From assembly GCF_016862575.1 (NCBI RefSeq), contig NZ_BONF01000046.1, forward strand, positions 1-64,000: a DNA stretch of 64,000 nt, written 5' to 3'. Under the pieces are notes generated by a model. It worked only from the letters and a program-made list of their open reading frames with translations, ran no database searches and was not told where the DNA came from. Positions 5,998-57,551 of this stretch are shown here, piece after piece. This stretch comes from Catellatospora bangladeshensis. GTDB taxonomy: Bacteria > Actinomycetota > Actinomycetes > Mycobacteriales > Micromonosporaceae. The translations under genes and the position numbers were made by a program. The stretch's first letter is position 1; every line of letters starts with the position of its first letter.

Positions 5998-6058
5998 GAT
6001 CACTGTTTCGTGTCCAAAAGTGTGGCTGAGCCGCAGGTTTGGACACGAGATCGCGATC
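5998..6058. repeat. Intergenic palindrome, family A (TTCGTGTC type), degenerate
   Basis: TCGTGTCCAAA (6008-6018) pairs with TTTGGACACGA (6038-6048), and the outer flanks each carry GATC (5998-6001 and 6055-6058). The core CGTGTCCAAAAGTGTGG matches the arms of the elements at 55.57 kb and 57.49 kb. It lies just after the fbiAB operon and before the type VII cassette, so it may terminate fbiAB. Confidence 0.65.
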
Positions 6059-6219
6059 ATCGGCGGGTGCGACGAAGGGTTATCCACAGGGGGTGGTGCT
6101 AGGGCTGCGCTGAGTAGGGTCGATCCGTTACCCTGCCCGCAGGCGTCCTATCCGGCCGGTGTGTGGACCAGCGGAGTGCCGGGCCGCCATTCGCAGCGCG
6201 CTTCTTTGGGGAGGGAAGC

Positions 6220-6639
6220 ATGCCTGAACGACCTGTGCACGGCAGGCTCACCGTCGACCTGGCCGGCCTACGCGAGATCAGCGCCGACCTGCGTCGCGAC
6301 ACCGACGAGGACCTGCGCCCCGGCTTCGCCACCGCCCAGCGGCAGATGCGCTACGGTGCGCGCTTCTGCCTCGCACTCGACTGTGCCGAGGGCCGAGCCG
6401 CTCGCCATTCGGTGACCGAGGTGCTCAAACAGCATCATGCGAACGCGGCTTTCCAGCTCCAGATGGCGGAGCAGCTCACGATCGCGTTAGAACAGATCGT
6501 CGACAATTACGCCGCCGCCGATGCGAGATCCGCTTCACGCATCGCGGAGGTCGCCGCCGAGCTCAACAGAGTCTTCGAACAGCTGCAACAGCCTGCGCAG
6601 CCCACCCAAAGCCCACCGCTGAGAGGGATGCTCCCGTGA
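6220..6639 (+). CDS. Small type VII secretion substrate-like protein with YxxxD motif
   Basis: I do not recognise a named family for this 139-residue protein, but it looks like an ESX/WXG100-type helical hairpin. Almost all of it is predicted helix. After the second long helix it has Tyr97-Ala-Ala-Ala-Asp101 (NYAAAD), which fits the YxxxD/E export signal of type VII substrates; no WxG turn is evident. The C-terminus ends in a short Gln/Pro tail. The ATG at 6220 follows GGGAGGG. The stop overlaps the GTG of the next gene (GTGA), and the three genes to 8944 form one coupled operon. Base composition is less GC-biased than in the flanking F420 genes, suggesting later acquisition. Confidence 0.65.
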   Translation: MPERPVHGRLTVDLAGLREISADLRRDTDEDLRPGFATAQRQMRYGARFCLALDCAEGRAARHSVTEVLKQHHANAAFQLQMAEQLTIALEQIVDNYAAADARSASRIAEVAAELNRVFEQLQQPAQPTQSPPLRGMLP

Positions 6640-7883
6640 CCGCAGGGCAGAGCGGAATGCTTGCCGACGAAGGCGGCTACGTCGTCGCTCCCGGCGATGC
6701 CCTGAAAAGGTGGCCGACTACGGAGCAGACGAACTGGGTTTCGATCGACCCGCCCCGCGCGTGGGACATGGTTCGTCACGAAGATGACGCCTTGGGCTGG
6801 GAGCAGATCGCCGGTCTTCGTCGACTCGCAAGCCTGCTCCTGGCACATGCGGATCAACTCGACAAGCAGCGCACCGCCCTCGCCCAGATCTGGCCTGCGG
6901 AGGCAAGCCCAGCCTCCGCCGTCGCATTAGCCAAGATCGGCAAGCTGATCAACGGCATGCGGCTGGAGAGTGAGGCCGCTCTGCAGAATGCCCTAGCGCT
7001 TGATGGGATCATGGCAGCAACTGCTAAGGCCAAGCAGGAGATTCGGCAGGTCGTGCAGCAGTGGGAGACCACAACCCATGAGGGCGGCCCCGAATGGTGG
7101 GATCGCGAGGCCACCCGGCTGAGTTACGTCACAGAGCAGACGATGACCGCCACCGAACGCACCATTCGAGACCACCGGAGCCGCATAACCCTGCCGATTG
7201 ACTCTCGCAGTGTTGATGACGGTGCGCAGATCGTGGGTCTGCCCACACCAGCGCCTGATCCAAGTGGGTCGACCAGCACTCGCAAACGCGGACCCAACGG
7301 GCCTTTGCCCACGCCACCGCCCATGCCGGGATACCCGCCTCTCGTCAGTCCACTGCCGGGCGAGTCCGGCCCCGATCTTCAAGGCATGACGCCACCCGTT
7401 CCCGCTGCGCCAGGCCAGCCCGTGTCTATGTTGCCGATCGCGCCTGGCAACCCTCATGCCCCTTACGGCGGTGCCTACGTCCTCCCCGGCCCCGGCGTGG
7501 GGAAGAGCGGCTATGTGGTGTCACTGCCACAGCCGGGCTCCGGAGCTGGACCCGCTGTCACCGCGGCGGCCCGCGGTGGTGGGTCGAGCATGCCCGGAAT
7601 GATGCCGCTACCGATAGGCGGGCCGACCGGTCAGCCGAACAACCAGGGTGGAGGCGCGGCATATCGACGTCGGCCGGACACTTCATGGGACGTCGCACAG
7701 GGAGTGCCTCCCCTGATCGCGCCTGAAGCCGTCAGCCGTTCCTCGGAACCCACATCCGAGCAGATCGAGGAAGACTTCCGCCAGTGGTTCACCCAGACAG
7801 CGATGCCCTGGCGGAACGAAGACCACCCCGATGAACCAGCGCCCATCGTGACCATCCGCAGAGGAGGAGTAAAAAACCCGTGA
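6636..7883 (+). CDS. PPE/WXG-like secretion-associated protein with Pro-rich C-terminus
   Basis: The 415-residue protein has an N-terminal helical part of about 200 residues and a Pro/Gly-rich, probably disordered part from about residue 200 to 400. The N-terminal helices include ALAQIWPAEASPASA, which resembles the WxG turn between two hairpin helices of the ESX and PPE proteins. There is no signal peptide or membrane segment, as expected for a type VII substrate or chaperone partner. The GTG start at 6636 overlaps the previous stop by 4 bp, and its own stop overlaps the mycosin start in the same way. Assignment rests on hairpin shape and neighbours rather than on a clear family match. Confidence 0.6.
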   Translation: MTAGQSGMLADEGGYVVAPGDALKRWPTTEQTNWVSIDPPRAWDMVRHEDDALGWEQIAGLRRLASLLLAHADQLDKQRTALAQIWPAEASPASAVALAKIGKLINGMRLESEAALQNALALDGIMAATAKAKQEIRQVVQQWETTTHEGGPEWWDREATRLSYVTEQTMTATERTIRDHRSRITLPIDSRSVDDGAQIVGLPTPAPDPSGSTSTRKRGPNGPLPTPPPMPGYPPLVSPLPGESGPDLQGMTPPVPAAPGQPVSMLPIAPGNPHAPYGGAYVLPGPGVGKSGYVVSLPQPGSGAGPAVTAAARGGGSSMPGMMPLPIGGPTGQPNNQGGGAAYRRRPDTSWDVAQGVPPLIAPEAVSRSSEPTSEQIEEDFRQWFTQTAMPWRNEDHPDEPAPIVTIRRGGVKNP

Positions 7884-8944
7884 GCCCGCTCGCCACCGTT
7901 CGTCTCACCACAATCGCTCTCGTAATGACGGCTGTTCTGCTCGGAGCCGCAAACGGCGCCATCGCTACGGACGATGTGTCCGACGGACAGTGGTTCCACT
8001 CCTTCCTGAGCACCGACAAGGCGAACAAGATCACTGATGGCGCTGGCGTCACGGTCGCCGTTATTGACAGTGGCGTCGACGCCTCTCATCCCGATCTTCG
8101 GGGATCCGTGCGACCGGGCATCGATCTCGCAGAAGGCGGACACGGGGACGGCCGCACTGATGAAGACGGACACGGCACCGCGATGGCCGGACTGATCGCT
8201 GCCCACGGCCGTGTCCGAGGGATTGCCCCGGGTGCGGCGATCGTGCCGGTAAAAGTTTCACCACATCGGCAGATGACAGCAGCGGACATCGTTGAGGGAA
8301 TCCAGTGGGCAATCTCGCAGAAGGTCGACGTCATCTCAATCTCCCTCGCCGACGATTTCGATGACCCTGCGCTCCGACAAGCGGTCGCGCAGGCTCTCAA
8401 GTCGGACATAGTCGTGGTCGCGGGCGCTGGCAACAAGCCTGATCCGACAGTGGGCTTCCCTGCGGCGATTCCCGGTGTCGTAGCTGTGGGTGGCGTAGAC
8501 AGGCAGGGGGATCACGCGAAGATCTCGGTGACGGGAGCTGCGATCGTCGTCTGCGCACCCAGCGACGAAATCACCAGTACAGGCCTCCAGCATCTCTGGC
8601 GGAAGGCCACCGGTACGTCCGACTCAACGGCGATCGTCGCCGGTGCCGCAGCGCTGGTGCGAGCACGGTACCCAGATCTTTCAGCGGCCGAGGTCGTTCA
8701 TCGCATTACGGCCACCGCGATCGACAAAGGCCCCGCCGGACGCGACCCGCAGTACGGCTACGGCGTGCTCGACATCGTCGCGGCGCTCACCGCAGACGTG
8801 CCCCCGCTGGCCTCTGCTTCACCGAGCACACCCGCCGAGCCGGACTCCAACAACCCGTGGCCGCTGGTGATCATCATCGGTACCGTGGTGGTGGCTGGCG
8901 TGCTGGTGCTGCTGCTCGTGGTCAGATCACGGCGCAGGGGCTGA
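7880..8944 (+). CDS. mycP: Mycosin: type VII secretion-associated subtilisin-like serine protease
   Basis: The 354-residue protein is an S8 protease of the mycosin type. It has an N-terminal signal-like hydrophobic stretch (residues 8-26), the catalytic Asp63 (AVIDSG), His98 (DGHGTAMAG), the oxyanion Asn185 (AGAGN) and Ser247 (GTS). The usual proline after the serine box (GTSxAxP) is alanine here. A single C-terminal membrane helix (about 325-347) followed by RSRRRG anchors it facing outward. Mycosins are needed for ESX systems, yet no EccB, EccC, EccD or EccE gene lies nearby. The 3' end overlaps the converging regulator gene by 18 bp. Codon use is less GC-rich than in neighbours. Confidence 0.85.
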   Translation: MSPLATVRLTTIALVMTAVLLGAANGAIATDDVSDGQWFHSFLSTDKANKITDGAGVTVAVIDSGVDASHPDLRGSVRPGIDLAEGGHGDGRTDEDGHGTAMAGLIAAHGRVRGIAPGAAIVPVKVSPHRQMTAADIVEGIQWAISQKVDVISISLADDFDDPALRQAVAQALKSDIVVVAGAGNKPDPTVGFPAAIPGVVAVGGVDRQGDHAKISVTGAAIVVCAPSDEITSTGLQHLWRKATGTSDSTAIVAGAAALVRARYPDLSAAEVVHRITATAIDKGPAGRDPQYGYGVLDIVAALTADVPPLASASPSTPAEPDSNNPWPLVIIIGTVVVAGVLVLLLVVRSRRRG

Positions 8945-9925
8945 GCGGCCCACGAGCATCGCGTACCCCAGCTGCGTCAGCGTGTGGTGAACCGTGTTCC
9001 GGTCACGGACGCTGTGCAGCAGTCCCGCACCGCGCAGCACGGCCACGTGCTGGCTCGCGGCGGCCGGCGACACGTCGAGCCGCCGCGCCAGCTCACTGGT
9101 CGTGCTCCCCTGCGCCACCAGCTCCAGCACCGCCGCCCGCGTACGCCCCAGCAACGCCGACAGCGCCTCGCCGCCACGCACGACCGCGGCCCGCGCCTCC
9201 TGGTGCACGGAGTACACCAGCACCGGCGGCAGCTCCGGGTCGAACAGGGTCACCGGCTTGGTCGGCGTCTTGAAGTACGACGGCACCAGCTGCAGCCCTC
9301 GCCCCTCCAGATGCACCTCCCGATGCGACGGGTAGTCCGCCACCTCGAGCACGTTCCCGTCGAAGCGCACGGTCGGGTGCAGGCTGTTCAGCAGCCCCTC
9401 CGTCCCGGAGTCGATCATGGTGCGAGCCCGGATCCCCCGGTCCGCGTCGACGGCTGTACGTACCCGGTCCCACATCGGCGCGATGGCCGTCTCGTGATAG
9501 CGGCCGATGGCGGTGCCCAGCTCACCGATCGCACCCAGGTGACCGCTGCCGACGTCGTCGACCGGGGCGGGCAGTGACCCCTGCGCGTCGCCGAGCGCGT
9601 TGATCTCCTGCCGGAGCCGGTTCTTCGGCGTGGTCAGCACGGCGTCCAGCCCCGCACCGATACCGCCGGACGCCTCGGGCGGGGTGAGGAAGTCGGGGAA
9701 GTAGCCGACCGGCGGGTTGAGCGCCAGCAGCAGGCCCACCTCGTCCCGCAGCGGGCCGCCCGGCTTGAGGCCGTTGATCATGCGCTGCTTCCACCCGGCC
9801 AGCAGCGGATCGGTGCCGCGCATGCGGAGCAGGTGGATGCTGAGCGCGAGTTCCCACAGCGGATCCGGCACTGACGCGATCCGCGTACGGACCAGGTCGG
9901 CACCGGTGAAGTGGATGCGCAGCAT
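8927..9925 (-). CDS. ArsR-type winged-helix transcriptional regulator with N-terminal DUF5937-like region
   Basis: The 332-residue protein ends in a winged helix-turn-helix (about 255-325) reading LSALLGRTRAAVLELV, then the recognition part SELARRLDVSPAAASQHVAVLRGAGLL. That is the pattern of ArsR-like regulators which sense by dimerisation. The large N-terminal region of about 240 residues resembles the uncharacterised domain (DUF5937) often found before such HTHs in actinobacteria. No metal-binding cysteines are seen. The ATG at 9925 has GGAGAG upstream and leads into the MLRIHFTGADL start typical of the family; a 46-residue upstream extension in frame is unlikely. Its target is unknown. Confidence 0.75.
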   Translation of the reverse strand: MLRIHFTGADLVRTRIASVPDPLWELALSIHLLRMRGTDPLLAGWKQRMINGLKPGGPLRDEVGLLLALNPPVGYFPDFLTPPEASGGIGAGLDAVLTTPKNRLRQEINALGDAQGSLPAPVDDVGSGHLGAIGELGTAIGRYHETAIAPMWDRVRTAVDADRGIRARTMIDSGTEGLLNSLHPTVRFDGNVLEVADYPSHREVHLEGRGLQLVPSYFKTPTKPVTLFDPELPPVLVYSVHQEARAAVVRGGEALSALLGRTRAAVLELVAQGSTTSELARRLDVSPAAASQHVAVLRGAGLLHSVRDRNTVHHTLTQLGYAMLVGRSAPAP

Positions 9926-10206
9926 GGACTCTCCGGATGAGGGGGTGCCGCTGACTCTACCGGCGGACGTGACCTGCGTCTTTAAGTCACGGCCGAATGT
10001 CGTGGACCCGTCACCGTTCGGTGGACGATCCTTGTCGGGCCTGGGGAGCCGGGACGGCGTCACGCGGAGGGTGCCAGTCCCTGGACCGTACGGGGGCGTA
10101 CGGGGCGATGCGGAAGCGGCTGGTCGGAGTGCCGGGGGGCGGTCTGACCGGCCGCTCCGTGCGTTCGCACCCCACCCGGCCCGCCGTCACTCCCGGACCG
10201 GCGCGC

Positions 10207-10258
10207 ACTTTCGGGGAAAGTGCACCCGCCAAGCACCGGATGACCCCACTTTCCCCGA
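10207..10258. repeat. Intergenic palindrome, family C (TTTCGGGGAAAGTG type)
   Basis: TTTCGGGGAAAGTG (10207-10220) pairs with CACTTTCCCCGAAA (10245-10258). The left arm also forms its own small hairpin, GCACTTTC with GAAAGTGC. The same core occurs at 29.77 kb and twice at 44.02-44.08 kb. Confidence 0.7.
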
Positions 10259-10455
10259 AACCGCACCCCGAACCTGCGGCCGCCCTGAACCCGCGCCCAT
10301 CCCGAACCCCGCGCCCGCCTCGAACCCGCACCCATCCCGAAACCCGCGCCCCACCCCGAACCTGCGGCCCGCCCCAGACGCGCGCCCGCCCCGAAAAGTG
10401 CATCCCGAACGCGCGCCCCATCCCAAACCCGCGCCCACCCCCAACGCGGCCCGGA
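10251..10455. repeat. Degenerate tandem array of a 17-18 bp unit
   Basis: About eleven imperfect copies of a unit close to CCCGAACCCGCGCCCAT follow one another without interruption. The units vary by 1-4 bases and by small indels. The array starts inside the right arm of the family C palindrome, whose CCCCGAAA resembles the first bases of the unit. It therefore looks like amplification of palindrome-arm sequence followed by decay. It ends about 15 bp before the stop codon of the DUF3616-like gene. Confidence 0.6.
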
Positions 10456-10470
10456 CCGCGCGGGTATGCG

Positions 10471-11499
10471 TCAGTTGGTGAGCCAGAGGGCGATGCGGTG
10501 GTCTTCGTCGGCGACGTAGAGCGGGGTGCCGTCGCGGTCGGACACGCCCTCGATGTGGTGCAGCGGCGCGAGGTCGGCGACCGGTTCGGGCGCGATGAGA
10601 CCCGGGCCGCCCCCGTCGGGCAGCTGGAACCTCAGGTGGCGGCAGGTGGCGTGCCGGGCGTGCGGGTGGTGCTCCAGCAGGATCGACCCCTTGTCGAGCG
10701 CGTCGATCGACCCGACGACCACGTCGAAGCTCCCGTCGGCCCGCGCCGCCAGCGCCCGTACCCCCAGCGGCCCCGCCCCGACCCCGGTCAGCGCGTACAC
10801 CCCCGCGACCCCGAGCGTGCCACCGCCGAACAGCCCCGGCAGCCCCGTCAGCTCGACCAGGATCGGCTCCCCCGCAGCGGTCACCGGCCAGCGCAGCCCC
10901 GCCAGCAGCGTGCCCCGGGCGGTGAACGCCGCCCCCTCGATGTTGATCGGATGGTCCCCGGGCGCGAGCTGCGCGACCCACCCCTTGCCTTTGGCCGTGC
11001 CGCGCCGCCGCGCCGCGCCGACGAAGCCGTCGTGTACGGCGAACGCGACCTTCTCCGGCGCCGCCGGGTGCCCGGTGACGGCGAGCGCGGCGAGCGCGTC
11101 GTTGACGGCCCGGTGCAGCGCGAACCGATGCCGGATGATCTCCAGGCGCGGCGTCGCGGACTCGCGGAAGCGGGCCACGAAGGCCCGTTTCGGCTGCAGC
11201 GGCCCGGCCTTGGAGCCGAAATGGGAGCCGAGCACGTACACCCAGCCGTCGTGGCGGGCGAGCGCCTCGGCGTCCTCGGTGCGCCCGGCGTGCGCGCCGA
11301 CGTCGGCTTTGACGTGTTCGGCGCGCCACCGCCCGTCGGCGTGCTCGACGAGCAGGGCCAGGCATTCCTCGACCGGTCCCTCGTCGAGCACGGTCCAGTA
11401 GGCCCGGCGTGCGCCGAGTTCGCGCAGCAGTGCCTCGTCGTGTACGGGCAGCAGGTCGCTTGCTTCGTTGCCGGCCGCGGTCAGCTCCACCAATCGCAT
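10471..11499 (-). CDS. DUF3616-like predicted beta-propeller protein of unknown function
   Basis: The 342-residue protein has repeated beta-rich blocks and no signal peptide. Segments such as EALARHDGWVYVLGSH, INIEGAAFTARGTLLAGLR and HHIEGVSDRDGTPLYVADE resemble the DUF3616 pattern, in which each block contains (I/A)EG or EAL followed by a glycine strand. The function of that family is unknown. The ATG at 11499 is the first reasonable start and lies 11 bp before the stop of manC, which is upstream in the same direction, so the two are likely co-transcribed. I am more certain that it is a real gene than of the family name. Confidence 0.6.
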   Translation of the reverse strand: MRLVELTAAGNEASDLLPVHDEALLRELGARRAYWTVLDEGPVEECLALLVEHADGRWRAEHVKADVGAHAGRTEDAEALARHDGWVYVLGSHFGSKAGPLQPKRAFVARFRESATPRLEIIRHRFALHRAVNDALAALAVTGHPAAPEKVAFAVHDGFVGAARRRGTAKGKGWVAQLAPGDHPINIEGAAFTARGTLLAGLRWPVTAAGEPILVELTGLPGLFGGGTLGVAGVYALTGVGAGPLGVRALAARADGSFDVVVGSIDALDKGSILLEHHPHARHATCRHLRFQLPDGGGPGLIAPEPVADLAPLHHIEGVSDRDGTPLYVADEDHRIALWLTN

Positions 11500-11509
11500 G
11501 ATTGGCAGA

Positions 11510-12610: not shown

Positions 12611-12702
12611 CCGACCATCATGCCTGACAGATGCGACCTCCCCGCGCACCCCGCCCGTGACACAAGCCGCATTCGCCTGCTAGGGGCGGGGTGCCCGGAA
12701 GA

Positions 12703-13976: not shown

Positions 13977-14011
13977 GGTCCACGACGCGGCAGTGTCGGT
14001 AGCCTGACCAC

Positions 14012-14725: not shown

Positions 14726-14733
14726 CCGGCGAC

Positions 14734-14785
14734 GTTAAGAAGGGCACCTTCTTCTACGCATAGCGTTAAGAAGGTGCCCTTCCTT
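14734..14785. repeat. Full copy of 52-bp dispersed intergenic repeat, terminator-like
   Basis: GTTAAGAAGGGCACCTTCTT and GTTAAGAAGGTGCCCTTCCTT are near copies in both direct and inverted sense, separated by CTACGCATAGC. AAGAAGGGCACCTTCTT (14738-14754) therefore pairs with AAGAAGGTGCCCTTCCTT (14768-14785), and each half is itself nearly self-complementary. Bases 14753-14785 are identical to window positions 1-33. It occupies the whole gap between two converging stop codons. I remember similar sequences as common intergenic repeats in Micromonospora, but cannot check. Confidence 0.8.
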
Positions 14786-19068: not shown

Positions 19069-19118
19069 AGATCTTGGAGAGTTGTTGTCGTTGGAGCGAC
19101 AACAACTCTCCAAGATCT
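19069..19118. repeat. Perfect intergenic palindrome with 22-bp arms (AGATCT ends)
   Basis: The arm 19069-19090, starting AGATCTTGGAGAG, pairs without mismatch with 19097-19118 over the loop TTGGAG. Both ends are the GATC-containing hexamer AGATCT. It is far more AT-rich than the surroundings. It lies in the gap between two converging genes, next to a second palindrome. Confidence 0.85.
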
Positions 19119-19133: not shown

Positions 19134-19190
19134 TGATCATGAAGTTAGGGGTGCGACACGCCGTCGAACACGCCCATAAGTTCATGATCA
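19134..19190. repeat. Intergenic palindrome, family B (TGATCATGAA type)
   Basis: The arm 19134-19153 (TGATCATGAAGTTAGGGGTG) pairs with 19171-19190 with three mismatches. The loop and right arm, from GCGACACGCCG to CCATAAGTTCATGATCA, match the right arm of the 147-bp element at 27962-28108. It looks like a shortened version of that element. It ends 36 bp before the hrpA stop. Confidence 0.8.
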
Positions 19191-27934: not shown

Positions 27935-27961
27935 CCACCCACCCACCCACCCGCCCCGACG

Positions 27962-28108
27962 CGTTGATCATGAACCTATGGACGTGTTCGGCGGCGTGTC
28001 CCGACCCTGCCACCGTGATCACCGAGACGGCCCGGCGAGGCGGCCAGGTGATCACGGCGCGAGGGTCGGGACACGCCGTTCATCACGTCCATAAGTTCAT
28101 GATCAACG
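27962..28108. repeat. 147-bp intergenic palindrome, family B, with arms near 60 bp
   Basis: The arm beginning CGTTGATCATGAAC (27962) and the arm ending TTCATGATCAACG (28108) are complementary over about 60 bp with a few mismatches. They include GGCGTGTCCCGACCCT paired with AGGGTCGGGACACGCC and, innermost, CCGTGATCACC paired with GGTGATCACGG. The centre is a GC-rich loop of about 23 nt. The outer right arm supplies the TGA stop of the converging gene (28103-28105). It belongs with the element at 19134-19190. Confidence 0.88.
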
Positions 28109-28597
28109 CGAAGGGGTGGGGGTGGGGTCGAGGAGGCGGAGGGCTTCGTCGGCGGCGGAGGCGTCGACGAGGATCTGGTAGCGGTCGGCCTGCATGGCCG
28201 AGACCGAGGAGAAGTCGTGGCGGCGGCCGCTGAGGACGTGGCCGGCCAGGCCGAGCAGGGCGCCCGCGACCGCGCCGAACAGCGCGCCGTAGAGGACGAG
28301 CAGCAGCAGCGACATCAGCGGGGTGATCCAGTTGAAGAAGCCGAACAGCCAGGCGAACAGGCCGCCCACCAGCGCGCCGTTCAGCGCGCCCTGGCCTGCC
28401 GCGCGCCAGCCGGTCATCCGGCCGGTGACCTGCTCGACCAGGCTGAGCCCGCGGCCGGCGATCGCCGTGCGCTCCACCGGGAAGCCCTGGTCGGAGAGGT
28501 GGTCGACGGCTCGCTCGGCCTCGGCGTACGTCTCGTAGGTCGCGATCACGACCTGGCCGGTGACCCGGCTGTCCGCGGCCCAATCGGTCTGTGTCAT
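28103..28597 (-). CDS. Membrane protein with general-stress-protein (YflT-like) N-terminal domain
   Basis: The 164-residue protein begins with an alpha/beta domain (about 12-55) whose VVIATYETYAEAERAVDHLSDQGFPVERTAIAGRGL pattern matches the general stress protein 17M-like family. A Gly/Ala-rich double membrane hairpin follows (about 68-120), then a second small strand-helix repeat QILVDASAADEALRLL. Such proteins are induced by stress in actinobacteria and low-GC firmicutes; the biochemical role is not known. The ATG at 28597 is preferred over one six codons upstream. Its stop codon lies within the arm of the palindrome. Confidence 0.8.
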   Translation of the reverse strand: MTQTDWAADSRVTGQVVIATYETYAEAERAVDHLSDQGFPVERTAIAGRGLSLVEQVTGRMTGWRAAGQGALNGALVGGLFAWLFGFFNWITPLMSLLLLVLYGALFGAVAGALLGLAGHVLSGRRHDFSSVSAMQADRYQILVDASAADEALRLLDPTPTPSR

Positions 28598-29752: not shown

Positions 29753-29829
29753 GACCGGGCTGCAGTTTCGGGGAAGGTGTGGCTTCGCCAGGCGAAATTC
29801 CTGCACTTCCCCGAAACTGCAGCCCGGTC
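29753..29829. repeat. Intergenic palindrome, family C, with perfect 24-bp outer arms
   Basis: The arm 29753-29776 (starting GACCGGGCTGCAGTTTC and containing TTTCGGGGAAG) is perfectly complementary to 29806-29829. A second inner stem forms from CTTCGCC and GGCGAA. It lies between converging stop codons at 29704 and 29851. Confidence 0.88.
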
Positions 29830-37782: not shown

Positions 37783-37857
37783 GATCGTCCGACTTGCCAG
37801 GCACCTGGGCGTATCCGCGTTCAAGATACGCCTGTATGCCAGGCAATTCGGACGGTC
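37783..37857. repeat. Intergenic palindrome with 33-bp imperfect arms
   Basis: The arm 37783-37815 (GATCGTCCGACTTGCC...) pairs with 37825-37857 with about six mismatches and a 9-nt loop. It sits between the converging stops at 37753 and 37870. Its left end carries GATC; the right end reads GGTC. Confidence 0.8.
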
Positions 37858-37869
37858 AAGACGCGGACG

Positions 37870-43974: not shown

Positions 43975-44021
43975 GCTCCCACCCTCTCACAACCGCCCAC
44001 CCCGTCCGGGTTCGTGGCGCG

Positions 44022-44081
44022 CTTTCCGGGAAAGTGCACGAATACCCGCTCTCCGGCGTGCACTTTCGGGGAAAGTGCACC
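44022..44081. repeat. Intergenic palindrome, family C, double core
   Basis: CTTTCCGGGAAAGTGCACG (44022-44040) pairs with CGTGCACTTTCGGGGAAAG (44058-44076) with one mismatch, and the right copy also folds on itself (GTGCACTTTC with GAAAGTGCAC). The core recurs at 10.2 kb and 29.8 kb. It follows the pspA stop in the direction of transcription. Confidence 0.8.
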
Positions 44082-44130
44082 GGGGAAGCCCTTGGCGATC
44101 TTGGGGCGGCCGACGATCCCGCTGCGCCGG

Positions 44131-50314: not shown

Positions 50315-50393
50315 CGTGCTCTCCCCACGTGCGAGAATCGACCCCAACAGTGTTCCTCACGCCCCCGACACGCCTAGCGAAGGACCCCCACCG

Positions 50394-50837: not shown

Positions 50838-50958
50838 TCCGCTGGTAGGTTGGTAACTTCGCCCATCGCGCTCAAGGAGGCAGGTACCTCTTTGGCGCAG
50901 GCGGTCGAGCACCGCCCGCACGAGTCCGAAAAATCCGTAAGACCTGAGGAGAACGCCC

Positions 50959-51447
50959 GTGTCCACGACTGATGCCACCTGGCTGTCCCAGGACGCGTAC
51001 GACAGGCTCCAGGCCGAGCTCAACGAGCTCATCGCCGCCCGCCCCGCCATGGCCGCGGAGATCAACGCCCGCCGCGAGGAGGGCGATCTTCGCGAGAACG
51101 GCGGCTACCACGCCGCGCGCGAGGAGCAGGGCAAGGCCGAGGGCCGGATCCGCCAGCTCCAGGAGCTGCTGCGGGTGGCCCGCGTCGGGGAGGCGCCGAA
51201 GGGTGACGGCGTGTCCGTCGGCACCGTGGTCACCATCTACTTCGACGACGACACCGACGACACCGAGACGTTCCTGCTGGGCTCGCGCGAGATCGCGGCC
51301 ACCACGGATCTCACCGTCTACTCACCGGAGTCGGCGCTGGGCCAGGCCATCACAGGCGCCCGCAAGGGCCAGACCGTGACCTACACGGCCCCCAGCGGCC
51401 ACGACATCAAGGTCACCGTCGTCTCCTTCGAGGCCTTCGCGGGCTGA
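50959..51447 (+). CDS. greA: Transcription elongation factor GreA
   Basis: The 162-residue factor inserts into the secondary channel of RNA polymerase and stimulates cleavage of backtracked RNA. The N-terminal coiled coil carries the tip residues in EEGDLRENGGYHAAREEQ (41-58), with the conserved Asp and Glu, and the C-terminal domain has the FKBP-like SPESALGQAITGARKGQTV. The GTG at 50959 has GAGGAG upstream. It converges with ilvA across a perfect palindrome. Confidence 0.95.
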   Translation: MSTTDATWLSQDAYDRLQAELNELIAARPAMAAEINARREEGDLRENGGYHAAREEQGKAEGRIRQLQELLRVARVGEAPKGDGVSVGTVVTIYFDDDTDDTETFLLGSREIAATTDLTVYSPESALGQAITGARKGQTVTYTAPSGHDIKVTVVSFEAFAG

Positions 51448-51460
51448 CCCTCCCGTTCTC

Positions 51461-51503
51461 ATGATCAAGGCTCTCCGCGGTCCGCGCGGGGAGCCTTGAT
51501 CAT
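51461..51503. repeat. Intergenic palindrome with 19-bp arms ending ATGATC/GATCAT
   Basis: ATGATCAAGGCTCTCCGCG (51461-51479) pairs with CGCGGGGAGCCTTGATCAT (51485-51503) with one mismatch. It fills the gap between the greA and ilvA stops and would terminate both. Confidence 0.88.
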
Positions 51504-51514
51504 TTGGTACGCGT

Positions 51515-52741
51515 TCAGCTGAAGTGCCCGCCCACGTCGACCTGGTAGCCCGCCCCGCGCAGCGCGCTGACGAGCTGGTCGGAGTGCTCCGCGCCGCGGG
51601 TCTCCACGCTCAGCTCGACCTCGACCTCGCCCAGGTGCAGGCGCGGGTCGTGGCGCTGGTGTGCCACGTCGAGCACGTTGGCGCGCAGGTCCGCGATCAG
51701 GGTGAGCAGCGCGGCGAGCTGGCCCGGCCGGTCCGCGCAGCGGACGTTGACGTGCAGGTAGCGCCCGGCGGCGCTGAGCCCGTGCTCGATCACCCGCAGC
51801 ATCAGCAGCGGGTCGATGTTGCCGCCCGAGACCACCGCCACGACCGGGGTGCGCACCTGCACCTTGCCCGCGAGCAGCGCCGCCACGCCGACCGAGCCGG
51901 CCGGCTCGGCGACCAGCTTGCCCCGCTCCAGCAGCATCAGCAGCGCCCGGGAGATCTCCTCGTCGGTGACCGTGACGACCTCGTCCACCAGCTTGCTGAT
52001 GTGGGAGAAGGTGAGGTCGCCGCAGCGCCCCACCGCGATGCCGTCGGCGATCGTGGCCACGCTCGGGATGCGCACCGGCCGCCCGGCCCGCAGCGCGGGC
52101 GGCACCGCCGCTGCCCCGGCGGCCTGTACGCCGATGACGGTGATATCCGGGCGCAGCGCCTTCGCGGCCACGGCCAGCCCCGAGATGAGCCCGCCGCCGC
52201 CGATGCCGGTGATGATGGTCTGCACGTCCGGGCACTGCTCCAGGATCTCCAGCCCGACCGTGCCCTGCCCGGCGATCACGTCCGGGTGGTCGAACGGGTG
52301 GATGAAGACCGCGCCGGTACGCTCGGCGAACTCCTGCGCGGCGACCAGCGCCTCGTCGACCGTGCCCCCGCTGAACTCGACGCGCGCGCCGTAGCCCTTG
52401 GTCGCGGCGACCTTGGGCAGCGGGGCGCCCACCGGCATGAACACGGTGGCCTTCGTCTTGCACAACCCGGCCGCCAGCGCCACGCCCTGGGCGTGGTTGC
52501 CCGCGCTCGCCGCGACCACGCCCCGCGCCCGCTCCTCGTCGCTCAGCCGGGAGATCCGCACGTACGCGCCGCGCACCTTGTAGGAGCCGGCGCGCTGCAG
52601 GTTCTCGCACTTCAGCCAGGTCGGGCCGCCGAGCTTCGCGGACAGCGGCCGGCACGGCTCGACCGGGGTGGTGCGTACGACGAAACGCAGGCGCTCGCGC
52701 GCCGCCTCGATATCAGCCAGGCTGACCAGCTCAGGTGTCAC
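51515..52741 (-). CDS. ilvA: Threonine ammonia-lyase (dehydratase) with C-terminal ACT domain
   Basis: The 408-residue PLP enzyme converts threonine to 2-oxobutanoate, the entry to isoleucine synthesis. The PLP lysine is Lys55 in AGSYKVRGA, the phosphate-binding loop is ITGIGGGGLISG, and SAGNHAQGVA is the substrate loop. The last 85 residues form one ACT domain (VNVRCADRPGQLAALL...), as in the shorter catabolic or TIGR01127 forms, so it lacks the double ACT of E. coli IlvA and is probably less sensitive to isoleucine. The GTG at 52741 gives the family start. Confidence 0.92.
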   Translation of the reverse strand: MTPELVSLADIEAARERLRFVVRTTPVEPCRPLSAKLGGPTWLKCENLQRAGSYKVRGAYVRISRLSDEERARGVVAASAGNHAQGVALAAGLCKTKATVFMPVGAPLPKVAATKGYGARVEFSGGTVDEALVAAQEFAERTGAVFIHPFDHPDVIAGQGTVGLEILEQCPDVQTIITGIGGGGLISGLAVAAKALRPDITVIGVQAAGAAAVPPALRAGRPVRIPSVATIADGIAVGRCGDLTFSHISKLVDEVVTVTDEEISRALLMLLERGKLVAEPAGSVGVAALLAGKVQVRTPVVAVVSGGNIDPLLMLRVIEHGLSAAGRYLHVNVRCADRPGQLAALLTLIADLRANVLDVAHQRHDPRLHLGEVEVELSVETRGAEHSDQLVSALRGAGYQVDVGGHFS

Positions 52742-52770
52742 ACGCCGATCGTGCCACCCCGGCGGGCGGC

Positions 52771-54144
52771 TCAGTTCGGGCGGGGGAAGCCCGGCGCGTG
52801 GCGGCGCCACGGCGCGGCCAGCTCCAGCTGACCTGCCACGGCGAGCAGCAGCAGCTCGGTGCCGGGCGGGCCGACCAGCTGCACCGCCGCGGGCAGCCCG
52901 TCCGGGCGTACGCCCACCGGCAGCGTGAGCGCCGGGAAGCCGGTGATGTTCCACGGCGCCGCGAACGGGGCGTTGCGCACCTGCGACGCGACGTTGGACA
53001 GCCAGCCGCGCCGGTGCCAGGCCGCCGCGCGCAGGGGCGGGCCGGTCAGCACCGGGGTGAGCAGCAGGTCCACCCCGTGCTCGACGAAGAAGCCCAGGCT
53101 CCGCTCGCGGAACTCCGTGCGGTCCTGCTCGCGGACCAGGCCGCGCCGCCAGGCCACGCCGCCCGCCGCGATCAGGCGCCGGCTGCGCTTCTGCAGGCTG
53201 CGCCGGTCCACCTTCGCCGCCTCCGCGTCCCGGTAGCCAGCCGCGAACCAGGTCGCCAGGCCGCGCAGGCCGAGGGAGGTGGGGTACACCGGGTCGGCGG
53301 TCAGGGTGTCGTGGCCGCACTCGGCCAGCAGCCGTGTCGCGTTGCTCACCGCGGCCCGGTTCGCCTCGTCGGCGCTCGCCCCGGCCACCGGCGAGCGCAG
53401 CGACACGGCGATGCGCAGCCGGCCCGGCTGGCTCAGCGGCTGCGGCGTACGCCCCGCGAGCACCGCGTGGCCGAGCGCCGCGTCGGCCACCGTGGTCGCC
53501 AGCACGCCGTGCTCGACCAGGCCGAACCAGTCGTCGGCACCGAGGTTCACCGGCAGCACGCCGCGGCCCGGCTTCAGGCCGATCAGCCCGCAGCAGGCCG
53601 CCGGGATGCGGATCGAGCCCAGGCCGTCGTTGGCGTGCGCGATCGGCACCAGGCCCGCGGCGACCGCCGCCGCCGAGCCGCCGGACGAGCCGCCCGGGGT
53701 GCGGTCCAGCGCCCACGGGTTGCGGGTCGTCGCCGAGTCGTCGTCGGTGACCCCCCACAGCCCCATCTCGGACATCCGGGTCGTGCCGATCACCACGGCG
53801 CCCGCCCCGCGCAGCCGGCGTACCAGCTCGTGGTCCTCCTCCGCGACGGCCTGCCGGGCGCCCGCCGAGCCGTGCCACGTCGGCAGGCCCGCGACCGGGG
53901 TGTTCTCCTTGACCGCGATCGGCACCCCGGCCAGCGGCAGGCTGCCCATGTCGGTCTGGTCGTCGACCTTCTCCGCCTCCGCCGCGGCCTCGGCGGCGCG
54001 CACCGTGCGGAACGCCGCCACCACCGGGTCCGTGCTGGTCAGATAGTCGAGATGGTCCGCGACGACCTGCGTGGCCGACGTGTCGCCGCGGCGGACCGCA
54101 CGCGCGATCTGCTTGGCGGTGGCCCCGACCCAGGTGTCTGCCAT
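52771..54144 (-). CDS. Amidase-signature enzyme
   Basis: The 457-residue enzyme has the Ser-cisSer-Lys triad of the amidase family: the lysine in GVPIAVKENTPVAG (near 75), the cis-Ser and nucleophile region in TPGGSSGGSAAAVAAGLVPIAH (near 150-171), and DGLGSIRIPAACCGLIGLKPGRG. It hydrolyses an unknown amide. The ATG at 54144 is chosen because GGAAAGAG lies directly upstream. It could also be an amidotransferase-like relative, but no GatB or GatC neighbour is present. Confidence 0.88.
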   Translation of the reverse strand: MADTWVGATAKQIARAVRRGDTSATQVVADHLDYLTSTDPVVAAFRTVRAAEAAAEAEKVDDQTDMGSLPLAGVPIAVKENTPVAGLPTWHGSAGARQAVAEEDHELVRRLRGAGAVVIGTTRMSEMGLWGVTDDDSATTRNPWALDRTPGGSSGGSAAAVAAGLVPIAHANDGLGSIRIPAACCGLIGLKPGRGVLPVNLGADDWFGLVEHGVLATTVADAALGHAVLAGRTPQPLSQPGRLRIAVSLRSPVAGASADEANRAAVSNATRLLAECGHDTLTADPVYPTSLGLRGLATWFAAGYRDAEAAKVDRRSLQKRSRRLIAAGGVAWRRGLVREQDRTEFRERSLGFFVEHGVDLLLTPVLTGPPLRAAAWHRRGWLSNVASQVRNAPFAAPWNITGFPALTLPVGVRPDGLPAAVQLVGPPGTELLLLAVAGQLELAAPWRRHAPGFPRPN

Positions 54145-54221
54145 CTCTTTCCTCCACCACACGACTGCGAAACCGGGGATCCAGTATGGAGTGCGGTGAC
54201 GCGATGTGAGCAACAGGAGCC

Positions 54222-54250
54222 TTGCCGCGACGGATTTCATTGGCGATGCT
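54222..54250 (+). promoter_or_regulatory. Candidate leaderless promoter, first copy of duplicated pair
   Basis: TTGCCG (54222-54227) and GATGCT (54245-54250) are 17 nt apart, 6 nt before the ATG at 54257. The same arrangement and bases recur before the paralogous gene at 54892-54920, which supports function. Confidence 0.5.
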
Positions 54251-54256
54251 GAGCGG

Positions 54257-54880
54257 ATGCAGCCGGAGCAGCGTCGCGATTGGACCGTTCCCGTCGTCGT
54301 CGGGGTGGTCGCACTGGTGGTGGTGCTGGTGCTGTGCGTGGCCGGCGGCGCCGCGGCGTACCTGCTGGCCCGCGACCGCGGCACCGAGCCGGCGCCCGTG
54401 GCGGCCTCACCGAGCCCCAGCCCCGTCGCGGTCGCGCCGTCGCCCAGCCCCGCCTCCCCCGCGAGCTGCCTGGTGGGCCGTTGGAAGGAGACGTCGTACA
54501 CCGGCAACGCCGAGATCTACGGCGCGACCGTCCAGCTCACCGGCTCCGGGGCGCTGTTCGACTTCCGGCCCGACGGCACCCTGGTCGCGGTGCACAAGAC
54601 GAGCCGGCGCGGCACCAACAGCGGCGACCGGTACGAGGTGATCCACAACGGCACGATCACCATCAACTACGAGGCCGACGACGAGATGATCCACTACAGC
54701 AACGCGCGGGCCACCGGCACCACCACGTGGAAGGTCAACGGCAGCAAGCGGGGCAGCCAGAAGCTGACCTCGACGCTCGACCCCGAGCGCTACACGTGCA
54801 AGGGCGACGAGCTGCGGCTGTATGGCGAGGGCTTCGCCGTGGAGGCCCAGCGCATCCTGCCGCCCGGCCGCCCGGTGTGA
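54257..54880 (+). CDS. Membrane-anchored lipocalin-like protein, first of tandem pair
   Basis: The 207-residue protein has a short basic start, one membrane helix (about 11-37), a Pro/Ser linker (SPSPSPVAVAPSPSPA) and a globular domain beginning CLVGRWKETSY, which resembles the GxW start of lipocalin-like barrels. It alternates polar and apolar residues to the end (RILPPGRPV). Two cysteines, one at the domain start and one in YTCKGDELRLYG, could pair. It is about 60-65 percent identical by eye to the next gene. Function unknown; it would face the outside. Confidence 0.78.
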   Translation: MQPEQRRDWTVPVVVGVVALVVVLVLCVAGGAAAYLLARDRGTEPAPVAASPSPSPVAVAPSPSPASPASCLVGRWKETSYTGNAEIYGATVQLTGSGALFDFRPDGTLVAVHKTSRRGTNSGDRYEVIHNGTITINYEADDEMIHYSNARATGTTTWKVNGSKRGSQKLTSTLDPERYTCKGDELRLYGEGFAVEAQRILPPGRPV

Positions 54881-54891
54881 TCAGCGCGGCC

Positions 54892-54920
54892 TTGCCGTGA
54901 CCGAGCGCGTTGGCGATGCT
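54892..54920 (+). promoter_or_regulatory. Candidate leaderless promoter, second copy of duplicated pair
   Basis: TTGCCG (54892-54897) and GATGCT (54915-54920) with a 17-nt spacer precede the ATG at 54927 by 6 nt, mirroring the first copy, including TTGGC just before the -10. Confidence 0.5.
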
Positions 54921-54926
54921 GGACCG

Positions 54927-55547
54927 ATGCAGCCGGAGCCGCGTCGCGATTGGACCGTCCCCATTGTCATCGGCGTGGTGGCGCTGGTCGTCGTGCTCGT
55001 GCTCTGCCTCACCGGCGGCGCGGCGGCGTACCTGCTGGCCCGCGACCGCGCCCCGGAGCCGTCGCCCACGCCCTCGCCCAGCCCGAGTCCCGTCGCCGCC
55101 GCCCCGTCGCCGAGCCCCGTCTCCCCCGCGCGCTGCCTGGTCGGCCGCTGGCAGGAGACCTCCTACACCAGCTACGGCGACATCTACGGCGTGAAGGTGC
55201 AGCTCAAGGGCGCGGGTGCGGTGTTCGACTTCCGCGCCGACGGCACGCTGTCGATCGTGCGCAAGACGTCGATGAAGGGCACCGCCAACGGCGACCGCTA
55301 CGAGGTCGTCTTCAGCGGCACCCACACGATCAACTACACCGCGGACGACAAAGAGATCAACTACAGCAACCCGCGCTCGACCGGCACCACGACCTGGAAG
55401 ATCAACGGCAAGGTGCGGGACCGGGAGAAGCTGGTCTGGATCACCACCCCCGACCGCTACACCTGCACCCCCACCGAGCTGCGCGTCTACGGCGACACCT
55501 ACGCCGAGGAGTTCACCCGCATCCAGCCCCCGGGCCGCCCGGTCTGA
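54927..55547 (+). CDS. Membrane-anchored lipocalin-like protein, second of tandem pair
   Basis: The 206-residue paralogue shares the start MQPEPRRDWTVP, the membrane helix, a longer Pro/Ser linker (TPSPSPSPSPVAAAPS) and the domain CLVGRWQETSY to RIQPPGRPV. The domain carries the same two cysteines. The duplication includes about 40 bp upstream, so the gene was copied together with its promoter. Divergence lies mainly in surface residues, suggesting different ligands or redundancy. Confidence 0.78.
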   Translation: MQPEPRRDWTVPIVIGVVALVVVLVLCLTGGAAAYLLARDRAPEPSPTPSPSPSPVAAAPSPSPVSPARCLVGRWQETSYTSYGDIYGVKVQLKGAGAVFDFRADGTLSIVRKTSMKGTANGDRYEVVFSGTHTINYTADDKEINYSNPRSTGTTTWKINGKVRDREKLVWITTPDRYTCTPTELRVYGDTYAEEFTRIQPPGRPV

Positions 55548-55569
55548 CGCGCCCGGCCTCCGCCGGTCG

Positions 55570-55634
55570 ATGATCGCGACTTCGTGTCAGAAAGTGGGGT
55601 CAGGCCGCACTTTCTGACACGAAGTCGCGATCAT
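55570..55634. repeat. Intergenic palindrome, family A, with perfect 27-bp arms
   Basis: The arm 55570-55596 (starting ATGATCGCGACTTCGTGTC) is perfectly complementary to 55608-55634 over an 11-nt loop. The core CGTGTCAGAAAGTGGGG recurs at 6.0 kb and 57.5 kb. It lies between converging stops at 55547 and 55648. Confidence 0.92.
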
Positions 55635-55647
55635 GGCAGGTAACCGA

Positions 55648-56784
55648 TCAGCCCAGCGCCGCCGCGAGGTCGCCCAGCAGGTCGTCGATGGTCTCGATGC
55701 CGACGGAGAGGCGGACCAGGTCGGCCGGGACCTCCAGCTCCGAGCCCGCGACGCTGGCGTGCGTCATCTTCCCCGGGTGCTCGATCAGCGACTCGATGCC
55801 GCCCAGCGACTCGGCCAGCGTGAACACCTTCGTCGTGTTGCAGACCCGCTCGGCCGCCGCCGCGTCGCCCATCCGGAAGCTGATCATGCCGCCGTACCGG
55901 CGCATCTGCTTGGCGGCCAGCTCGTGGCCGGGGTGCTCGGGCAGGCCCGGGTAGAGCACCTGCGTCACCTTCGGGTGGTGGGTCAGGAACTCGGCCACCT
56001 TCTCCGCGTTGTCGCAGTGCCGCTCCATGCGCACGGCCAGCGTCTTCACGCCGCGCAGGGTCAGCCAGGCGTCGAACGGCCCGTTGACCGCGCCCATCGC
56101 GTTCTGGTGGAACTTCAGCTCGTCGGCGAGCCCCGCGTCGTTCAGCACCAGCGCCCCGCCGACCACGTCCGAGTGCCCGCCCACGTACTTCGTGGTCGAA
56201 TGCACCACCACGTCCGCCCCCAGCGCCAGCGGCTGCTGCAGGTACGGGCTGGCGAACGTGTTGTCGACCACCAGCAGCGCGTGCGCGTCCCGGGCCACCG
56301 CGGCCAGGCCGGCGATGTCGGCGATGCTCAGCAGCGGGTTGGTCGGCGTCTCCACCCAGATCATCTTCGTGTTCGGGGTGACCTTGCGCCGTACGTCGTC
56401 GACGTCGGAGATCCGGGCCGCCGTCCAGGACAGCCCCCACCGCTGCGCCACCTTCGCGAACAGGCGGAACGTGCCGCCGTACGCGTCGTCGGGAATGATC
56501 ACGTGGTCGCCGGGCTTGCAAACGGTGCGGATCAGCGTGTCCTCGGCGGCCAGCCCGCTGGCGAACGTGAGCCCGCGCGCGCCGCCCTCCAGCGCCGCGA
56601 GGCACTCCTGGAGGGAGTCGCGGGTCGGATTGCCGGACCGGGCGTACTCGTAGCCCAGCCGCGGCGACCCGACGGCGTCCTGCTTGAAGGTCGACGTCTG
56701 GAAGATCGGCGGGATCACCGCACCGGTGCGCTCGTCCGGCTCCTGGCCCGCGTGGATGGCGAGCGTTTCAAACCCGTAAGACAT
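55648..56784 (-). CDS. metB: Cystathionine gamma-synthase/lyase family PLP enzyme
   Basis: The 378-residue enzyme belongs to the Cys/Met metabolism PLP family. The PLP lysine is in [16 protein letters not shown], the phosphate-binding part in [12 protein letters not shown], and [11 protein letters not shown] is typical. [20 protein letters not shown] near the C-terminus marks the synthase/lyase branch. It likely makes cystathionine from an activated homoserine and cysteine in methionine synthesis, but lyase activity cannot be excluded. The ATG at 56784 lies 30 bp from the divergent msrA start. Confidence 0.9.
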
Positions 56785-56814
56785 TCCCCCAGCGTAGAGG
56801 AGCAGACTGGAACC

Positions 56815-57471
56815 ATGTTCCTTCGCCACAAGAAGCTCGATGTCGTCACCGCCGCCGAGGCCCTGCCCGGTCGCGACACCGCGATCGAGGTGCCCGCGAA
56901 GCACTTCGTGCTCGGCACCCCGATGAAGGGCCCCTGGCCCGACGGGCTGCAGACGGCCGTGATCGGCATGGGCTGCTTCTGGGGCGCCGAGCGCCTCTTC
57001 TGGAAGCTGGACGGCGTCTACTCGACCTCCGTCGGGTACGCCGGCGGCCTCACCCCGAACCCGACCTATCAGGAGGTCTGCTCGGGTTACACCGGGCACA
57101 CCGAGGCCGTCGAGATCGTCTTCGACCCGAAGGTGATCTCGTACGGCGAGATCCTGCGGGTGTTCTGGGAGAACCACGACCCGACCCAGGGCATGCGGCA
57201 GGGCAACGACATCGGCACCCAGTACCGGTCGGCGATCTACACCACCAGCGAGGAGCAGCTCAAGGAGGCGCTCGCCTCGCGCGACGCGTTCCAGCCGGTG
57301 GTGAACGCCAACGGCTACGGCCAGATCACCACGGAGATCGCGCCGCTGTCGCACTACTACTACGCCGAGGACTACCACCAGCAGTACCTGGCCAAGAACC
57401 CCGACGGCTACTGCGGCATCGGTCCCAACGGCATGTCCTGCCCCATCGGCGTCGCCAAGACCGACGCCTGA
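56815..57471 (+). CDS. msrA: Peptide methionine (S)-S-oxide reductase
   Basis: The 218-residue enzyme repairs oxidised methionine. The catalytic Cys54 is in [10 protein letters not shown], followed by [20 protein letters not shown] and the [19 protein letters not shown] region. Resolving cysteines Cys200 and Cys209 in [12 protein letters not shown] correspond to those of E. coli MsrA. The N-terminal extension of about 45 residues is normal for the longer form. The ATG at 56815 follows AGAGGAG. Divergence from metB with only 30 bp between starts means overlapping promoters. Confidence 0.95.
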
Positions 57472-57490
57472 CGCCGCTCCCACGCGGCAT

Positions 57491-57551
57491 GATCGCGGGT
57501 TCGTGTCACAAAGTGTGGTCTAGCTGCACTTTCTGACACGAACCCGCGATC
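57491..57551. repeat. Intergenic palindrome, family A, with 25-bp arms
   Basis: GATCGCGGGTTCGTGTCAC... (57491-57515) pairs with 57527-57551 with a single mismatch, and ATGATC at the left end matches the element at 55570. The core CGTGTCACAAAGTGTGG is shared. It lies between converging stops at 57471 and 57570. Confidence 0.9.

Follow-up and report, generated by a model that had tools for sequence, protein, structure and literature searches.

The stretch of DNA analysed here, 64,000 nucleotides of Catellatospora bangladeshensis (hereafter the window), lies on contig 46 of an 8.83-Mb genome in 115 contigs (G000), has a GC content of 72.7%, and carries long palindromes in the gaps between its genes, many of them with GATC in an outer arm. 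These palindromes belong to several families, designated A to G, which are present in hundreds of copies and are located at gene 3′ ends; two short boxes of family A are conserved in situ, the hairpins bear a wobble bias on the transcribed strand, and neighbouring family A copies are separated by nearly whole turns of the DNA helix. Palindromic repeats are a familiar feature of gene ends, without a settled answer as to what makes genomes retain them; in the present case the hairpins show a strand-specific RNA signature, to which family A adds a DNA signature that a simple terminator does not predict. Judged from sequence, the chances are about evenly balanced that palindromes resembling REPINs (repetitive extragenic palindromic (REP) doublets forming hairpins) multiplied in Catellatospora and were kept mostly downstream of genes, where they would act as RNA hairpins and, in family A, also as DNA sites of a putative bridging protein.

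Palindrome families at gene ends

Two samples, each about one tenth of its genome, were scanned: 821 kb of G000 (the window, contig C5 and 400 kb of contig C8) and 880 kb of the sister genome G007, which is collinear with G000 and 95–96% identical to it over most of the compared length. Ungapped stems with a score of at least 12 were sought in gaps of 30–1500 bp. In G000, a long hairpin was found in 78 of 95 convergent gaps, in 38 of 112 plus 63 of 182 codirectional gaps (101/294) and in 3 of 113 divergent gaps, the difference between convergent and divergent gaps being highly significant (Fisher test, 4e-36), and the corresponding counts in G007 were 67/100, 43/124 plus 61/189, and 6/116. Over 421 kb, the stem score was reached in 96 of 254 real gaps and in none of 254 mononucleotide-shuffled ones. 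Hairpins were also present in 4 of 19 and 14 of 28 convergent gaps from other genera of the same family and order, sampled at 320 kb and 280 kb and mostly without a genus-by-genus test, which indicates that hairpins are a general feature of convergent ends, one more pronounced in this genome.

Profile searches resolved seven families, which together have 157 members in the 821-kb sample (36 of A, 17 of B, 14 of C, 18 of D, 24 of E, 36 of F and 12 of G), and 107 of the 207 scanned hairpins fell into one of them (64 of 92 in convergent gaps), the remainder being unique. Where both outer arms have GATC, its start-to-start distance is fixed for each family, at 57 bp in A, 51 bp in B, 71 bp in D and 72 or 63 bp in E. 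The family copies were distributed among convergent (84), codirectional (59) and divergent (7) gaps, with seven more in called coding sequence, and 68 of 96 convergent gaps held at least one; divergent gaps comprise more bases than convergent ones (26.5 versus 18.3 kb), yet they hold few copies. Mapped against gene orientation, the copies therefore lie non-randomly at gene ends, and the random placement that an earlier note on the window had named as fatal to its idea of recruited hairpins was not found. Along a G007 contig, exact family A cores were unevenly distributed (Kolmogorov–Smirnov p 0.001, 39 sites); no unevenness by distance from the contig start was seen for these cores (p 0.17), nor were the family A arrays uneven along it (p 0.26, 28 arrays). 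A signal of chromosome position was rejected on these results.

Conserved boxes in family A

Sequence constraint was assessed in 23 orthologous family A pairs of G000 and G007, a further pair, of 24 in all, having been left out on account of its length or the model ends. In the boxes GATC and TCGTGTC of both arms, 7 of 506 sites had changed, against 200 of 989 elsewhere in the element (Fisher test, 4e-30). Mean conservation at 14 orthologous copies was no higher than that of the flanks (88.8% versus 89.2%), an average that masks these two regimes. At nine of the ten family A copies absent from G007, the G007 gap was shorter by at least 63 bp, so these copies have really been deleted, and the conservation of the boxes is not a product of detection bias. 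Among double changes from a Watson–Crick start, 10 of 13 were Watson–Crick again, and the box pair 16–50 was T-A in 71 and G-C in 4 of 75 family A copies, with no mismatch. Similarly, the second box was altered in both arms together in other members of the genus, as CGGGTC/GACCCG in two of three G001 copies and several G002 copies and as GCGGTC/GACCGC in G009; in the third G001 copy, a G006 copy and a G010 copy its arms were not fully matched.

The GATC box is self-complementary and symmetric and stands in both arms of family A, and its centre lies 11.5 bp from that of TCGTGTC in the consensus, approximately one helical turn, which would suit a protein reading both boxes from one side. GATC was also the commonest tetramer common to both outer arms of the hairpins (56 of 207). 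A GATC-linked chromosome signal had been suggested for these palindromes, and may exist, given the frequency of GATC in the outer arms and its near-invariance in family A; the phasing described below points to a role at the DNA level, but one that would belong to the whole element and not to GATC alone.

Helical phasing of neighbouring family A copies

Neighbouring copies were collected by searching for the right end of one family A copy followed by the left end of the next, with spacers of 0–29, 30–60 and 61–91 bp, the shortest and longest ranges being searched in G000 and G007 only. The three ranges yielded 1, 34 and 6 pairs in G000 and 2, 29 and 1 in G007, and none with reversed controls. 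The 41 spacers of G000 measured 20 (one), 33 (seven), 34 (one), 42–45 (19), 47 (one), 54–55 (six), 64–66 (five) and 86 bp (one), the 32 of G007 measured 20, 22, 33 (six), 43–45 (18), 52–55 (five) and 65 bp, and neither genome had a spacer of 23–32, 35–41, 48–51 or 56–63 bp. Expressed from centre to centre (spacer plus 61 bp), the main classes are about 94, 105, 115, 126 and 147 bp, that is, 9, 10, 11, 12 and 14 turns at 10.5 bp. The strength of phase at this period was R 0.85 in G000 and 0.90 in G007, the best period being 10.75–10.8 bp, and none of 20,000 jittered or uniform sets was as high. When the 73 spacers of the two species, which are partly shared, were collapsed by similarity to 45 clusters, R was 0.91 (Rayleigh ~6e-17); the clustering chains GC-rich spacers together (one cluster of 19), which makes this test conservative. 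In this comparison longer spacers were matched by their printed letters only, and orthologous distances were omitted in one A-F and two A-B cases. Regarding controls, no phase to stop codons was found for family A (R 0.10, P 0.65, n=42), F (P 0.12) or D (P 0.16), and ordinary indels between G000 and G007 showed no peak at 10–11 bp. Folding of the RNA gives no reason for an unpaired spacer to measure whole helical turns, so DNA is the simplest level at which the phase could be set. The 73 spacers constitute a built-in phasing experiment, and a DNA role can be directly tested with oligonucleotides and cell extract.

Spacings between family A and other families were also compared between the two species. 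Net changes of 10 bp (A-F, C5:243 kb), 11 bp (A-G, C8:285 kb) and about 21 bp (A-F, C8:116 kb, as gaps of 8 and 13 bp) were found, together with changes of 22 and 44 bp in an F-A-F array at C8:236 kb, which involved several indels; a single change, of 1 bp in an F-A spacing at C5:356 kb, was off whole turns, the other five of six being near them. These near-whole-turn changes argue for selection that maintains the phase where the copies stand. For spacers between two family A copies, similarity was the sole basis for matching the species; two of these differed (64 versus 52 and 43 versus 45 bp) and others were equal, for example 33/33 and 20/20.

The origin of the fixed spacing was considered as well. 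Tandem duplication is a likely cause for some arrays, chiefly those with three or more copies, and 7 of 22 spacers were related to a flank (z >3), including those at C5:168 kb, at C6:14 kb and in a three-copy G007 array; as a general cause it was rejected, given that the other 15 had no detectable relation to either flank (z <3) and that the phase survives collapsing. Array neighbours were barely more alike than random copies (identity 0.76 in 21 pairs versus 0.73, standard deviation 0.05, in 595 random pairs), and with unrelated spacers this makes second copies look like separate arrivals. Such arrivals would also be expected if the helical spacing were the footprint of a copying machinery, in which an enzyme complex bound to a resident family A copy directed each new insertion to a set number of turns from it, the elements themselves serving no purpose in the cell. 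Copies do come and go between the sister species: among the 36 family A copies of the G000 sample, 24 are kept in G007, 10 are absent and 2 could not be mapped. Against such a footprint, the boxes are conserved in situ at shared copies, most A-F and A-G spacing changes after the split are close to whole turns, whereas a footprint alone would decay, and the ends of the indels that add or remove copies do not coincide with the ends of the elements; its enzyme is, moreover, purely putative. Overall this origin appears rather unlikely, and in-situ box conservation together with the near-whole-turn spacer changes favours a bound protein over a copy-placing machinery.

In the reading that we prefer, family A would be an operator with two half-sites, GATC-N6-TCGTGTC and its inverse, for a putative sequence-specific protein, and close copies would be bridged by this protein on one face of the helix, with only those spacers tolerated that keep the phase. 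It is possible, if a little short of an even chance, that family A marks where an undescribed bacterial protein, architectural (or copying) in function, recognises GATC-N6-TCGTGTC and measures distance in turns of DNA, with neighbours, possibly including hairpins of other families, on one face and the spacer sequence drifting freely. If this were true, gene 3′ ends across the genome would double as phased nucleoprotein docking sites.

Signals at the RNA level

A functional RNA hairpin would be expected to tolerate G-U pairs, but not A-C pairs, on the transcribed strand. In codirectional gaps, the GU:AC ratio on the transcript was 48:20 in G000 (p 0.0009) and 43:15 in G007, the latter not being independent, while in convergent gaps, where both strands are transcribed, it was 19:24 and 22:20, respectively. 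By class, the codirectional and convergent ratios were 26:9 versus 12:16 for the GATC families and 21:8 versus 6:5 for unique hairpins. A sign test on folding energy in G000 gave 25 to 13 for the GATC families (p 0.07) and 12 to 8 for families C, F and G. These results support an RNA role for the hairpins at large; as to its kind, the 3′-end hairpins may stop transcripts or protect their ends, and would do so in both directions in convergent gaps.

Bidirectional intrinsic terminators without a U tract constitute a recognised kind of element, with which the present hairpins share a stable stem near stop codons and the location in convergent gaps. The whole phenomenon could amount to ordinary terminators of this kind, copied by recombination, with the phasing secondary or mere lineage noise. 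The convergent location, the stable stems, the wobble bias on the transcribed strand and the occurrence of hairpins in 18 of 47 convergent gaps from other genera of the family and order all accord with it. However, a terminator needs a stem and not a set sequence, whereas GATC and TCGTGTC are near-invariant in an element of which the rest changes at 20%, and helical phasing is not predicted; the explanation is considered unlikely. Differently from such terminators, the Catellatospora elements, known from sequence alone, have boxes conserved beyond pairing, form repeat families and stand in phased arrays. The suggestion that the hairpins were recruited as bidirectional terminators has indirect support only: the strand-specific wobble bias indicates selection acting on the RNA hairpin, but the GATC families lack the U tract.

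Observations that weigh against a double role

Several observations speak against the combination of RNA hairpin and DNA site preferred here. On the DNA side, no pairs with spacers of 30–60 bp were found in the nine other members of the genus, including G006 with about 99 copies, by a pattern that cannot match copies with another core; the two 20-bp spacers give 81 bp from centre to centre, some 3 bp short of eight turns; and family E alone was weakly phased to stop codons (P 0.034). When the distances of different family pairs were taken together, no shared phase emerged (R 0.09 and 0.10, n=11 each), and a common phase for all family pairs was rejected on this basis. The A-F (n=10, P 0.002) and A-B distances (78, 88 and 99 bp; n=3, P 0.008) were phased within their type, although this was tested after the numbers were known and some A-F values represent the same arrays in both species. 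Pairing in family A was only modest, with arms matching at 0.767 versus 0.719 when they were dealt among copies (300 deals, maximum 0.738), and of the one-sided changes at shared copies 53 abolished a pair and 48 created one, so that pairing is not strictly kept outside the boxes. On the RNA side, the GU:AC ratio of families C, F and G was 1:3 in both codirectional and convergent gaps, and for the whole fixed stem of family A alone the wobble bias was not significant (23:16 in G000; 44:28 pooled, p 0.08). In the GATC families, TTT followed in a single codirectional case out of 26 and in none of the 36 convergent ones, the U tract being commoner in other hairpins (12 of 70 unique codirectional ones).

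Copy number, spread in the genus and turnover

Genome-wide copies of family A were counted with a pattern allowing at most two mismatches, with forward and reverse matches given separately, as one element may match on one or both strands. The matches numbered 254+250 in G000, 235+239 in G007, 142+139 in G001, 99+98 in G006 and 45+41 in G002, and were fewer in G003 (34+27), G010 (26+27), G005 (4+4), G008 (2+2), G009 (0+2) and G004 (0); the reversed pattern gave none in all eleven members. There are, consequently, at least about 250 family A copies in G000. Of 61 genomes, 8 contained the exact 14-base core; these all belong to this genus, and none of the 50 genomes from other genera had it, while its reversed control matched once in each of two genomes. 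Across about 85,000 genomes, a scan from which the records of the window's own genome were possibly left out, the family A hairpin pattern matched 13 stretches, all from Catellatospora. The cores, then, are not rare in the genome, and the proposal of amplified hairpins is confirmed by this copy number and by the gains and losses relative to a sister of 95% identity.

Among the other families, most copies are kept in G007 (B 16/17, C 11/14, D 15/18, E 21/24, F 34/36 and G 8/12). With regard to miniature inverted-repeat transposable elements (MITEs), presence/absence differences between the two genomes span 54 to 339 bp, with no clean element-sized boundaries and, by eye, no constant target-site duplication. 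At C5:25460 of G000 (L053), 54 bp of the interior of a family A copy are missing in G007 and part of the outer GATC is left, as expected for slippage across a palindrome. Family F exists in two versions, one with a short loop and one in which a further hairpin of about 33 bp (GGCTCGCGTCAGCGAGACGAGCAGCAGC) is inserted inside, and orthologues differ in this respect (C5:145 kb, C5:234 kb and window 14739).

F-like copies were also found in another genus of the family (G020), where two convergent gaps (L138-L141) in addition hold a GATC palindrome peculiar to it, GATCTAGGGC...GCCCTAGATC, and a looser version of this, so that GATC-containing palindromes may be family-wide. The basal members G008 and G009 (L144-L149) carry another convergent-end palindrome, GACxxTGGCCTAT..., outside families A to G, with four copies in 120 kb. 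A known Rfam family was rejected, as no match at gathering scores was obtained in the window. Carriage by phages was likewise rejected, the family A pattern having no match in a viral collection in which an 18-base family B pattern had two.

With respect to the mover, the earlier note had called for a linked REP-type tyrosine transposase, an expectation that was not borne out. The search for a transposase covered the Y1 class, whose domain (PF01797) was not found in G000 or in G006, and the single G007 gene encodes the TnpA of an IS605 element, beside OrfB/TnpB. Within 1.5 kb of eight of the nine PF01797 matches in the genus, the sole match to families A to G was a 24-bp B-like one (L036). Genomes with PF01797 carry from about 4 to 235 family A copies. 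A REP-associated tyrosine transposase (RAYT) or IS605 as mover was rejected on the grounds that copy number and PF01797 presence are uncoupled: in G000, which has at least about 250 copies, no such gene was found, and in G001 three genes accompany about 140 copies. Copying is not by a resident REP transposase.

The elements could still descend from REP or REPIN sequences of a RAYT since lost from this genome, which would account for an anatomy of conserved inverted ends, a less conserved middle and compensatory changes, as in the portions of the REPIN description consulted (PMC3116915). This is very unlikely in view of the failure to find PF01797 in both G000 and G006 (about 99 copies), the wide range of copy numbers among its carriers, the IS605 identity of the G007 gene and the lack of the REP tag GTAG or CGTC in family A, which has GATC in both arms instead.

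Relation to known repeat systems

REPINs, as presented in the parts seen of PMC3116915, resemble the Catellatospora repeats in their high copy number and extragenic location, in having two inverted ends that are better conserved than the middle, and in their compensatory changes, and are of comparable size (61 bp from GATC to GATC in family A; 71 bp between the first residues of the ends in the GI REPIN). The Catellatospora repeats differ in that no RAYT was found in the genome, in the GATC rather than GTAG tag, in the helix-phased neighbours and in the coexistence of several unrelated families. Similarly, REP dimers and bacterial interspersed mosaic elements (BIMEs) of the GTAG/CGTC superfamilies are located downstream of, and between, convergent or codirectional open reading frames (PMC3733652, PMC8266576, in the sections available). 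In the first of these sources, frequent GT pairs were read as a sign of transcription, and some dimer spacers were alike in length and differed in sequence. The gene-end location, the GT-pair sign and the length-alike spacers are hence already known, as far as the portion seen of PMC3733652 goes. In contrast, whole-helical-turn spacing is not reported in the sections seen of these two papers, and the terms "actinobacteria" and "GATC" are absent from PMC3733652. Likewise, the literature search, in which sources were seen in part, found no report of these repeats or of helical phasing in bacterial palindromic repeats, and whole-turn phasing with free spacers appears to be new to this extent. A precedent comes from the linkers of yeast nucleosomes, which are preferentially quantised, the distances between protein-bound units differing by whole helical repeats (PMC2522279, seen in part); that case concerns eukaryotic chromatin, whereas the present one concerns defined bacterial repeats and a putative protein.

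Features of the window

All eleven inverted repeats listed in the earlier note were recovered near the positions given there, ten among the 25 longest pairs and that at 37783 by the hairpin scan, as 37786-37854; GATC stands in one or both outer arms of eight of them (at 37783, the left arm only). Its families A, B and C stood; the copy at 37783 was assigned to a fourth family, D, and hairpins at 14739 (F) and 59776 (G) were added (Table 1). The RNA folds of nine window hairpins each beat 200 of 200 dinucleotide shuffles (z -5.8 to -13.3). Genes were called with our own codon-usage script, which probably misses two window genes at 6.6-8.9 kb. It also gave ten converging pairs, the number in the earlier note, which credits nine with a long hairpin; a long stem was present in eight, that at 967/1041 has none, and that at 5952/8927 is probably an artefact of the missed genes.

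Table 1. Palindromic elements of the window, with positions numbered from its first nucleotide.
Element	Position	Strand	Evidence
Family A palindrome	5995..6060	.	nhmmer E 4e-15; RNA fold z -6.5
Family C palindrome (TTTCGGGGAAAGTG), codirectional gap	10199..10270	.	Inverted-repeat listing
Family F palindrome (GAAGGGCACCTTC), convergent gap, absent from earlier note	14737..14785	.	Hairpin scan, RNA fold; family F seed
Perfect GATC-containing palindrome outside families A-G, convergent gap	19069..19118	.	Inverted repeat, hairpin scan, RNA fold
Family B palindrome, TGATCATGAA ends, convergent gap	19134..19190	.	Inverted repeat, hairpin scan, RNA fold; served as family B seed
Composite family B palindrome, 185 bp, convergent gap	27943..28127	.	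Related copies at several other G000 and G007 sites
Family C palindrome, convergent gap, perfect 24-bp arms	29753..29829	.	Inverted repeat, hairpin scan, RNA fold
Family D palindrome (GATCGTCCGACTTGCCxGGCA), convergent gap	37783..37858	.	Hairpin scan, RNA fold
Family C palindrome, codirectional gap	44016..44081	.	Inverted repeat, hairpin scan
GATC-ended palindrome outside families A-G, convergent gap	51461..51503	.	Inverted repeat, hairpin scan, RNA fold
Family A palindrome, convergent gap, near-perfect 27-bp stem	55570..55634	.	Inverted repeat, hairpin scan, profile match; RNA fold -55 kcal/mol, z -13.3
Family A palindrome, convergent gap	57489..57553	.	Inverted-repeat listing, hairpin scan, profile match, RNA fold
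Family G palindrome (GAAGCTCCCGCC), codirectional gap, absent from earlier note	59776..59817	.	Inverted repeat, hairpin scan

The tetramer GATC occurs 439 times in the window (1-64000), where base composition alone predicts about 160. Two sites of the window differ from G007 by longer segments. The gap at 57472-57569 is about 1.2 kb longer in G007 (L072-L073, 573955-575152), with a family A copy flanking the extra DNA on each side. At 44123-44127, about 1.2 kb of extra DNA in G007 (L072) adjoins the family C palindrome, and its start has a GATC stretch, TAGATCTTGTGCAGTTCATGTC, that resembles one end of a palindrome seen at the C5:36-kb gap in G007.

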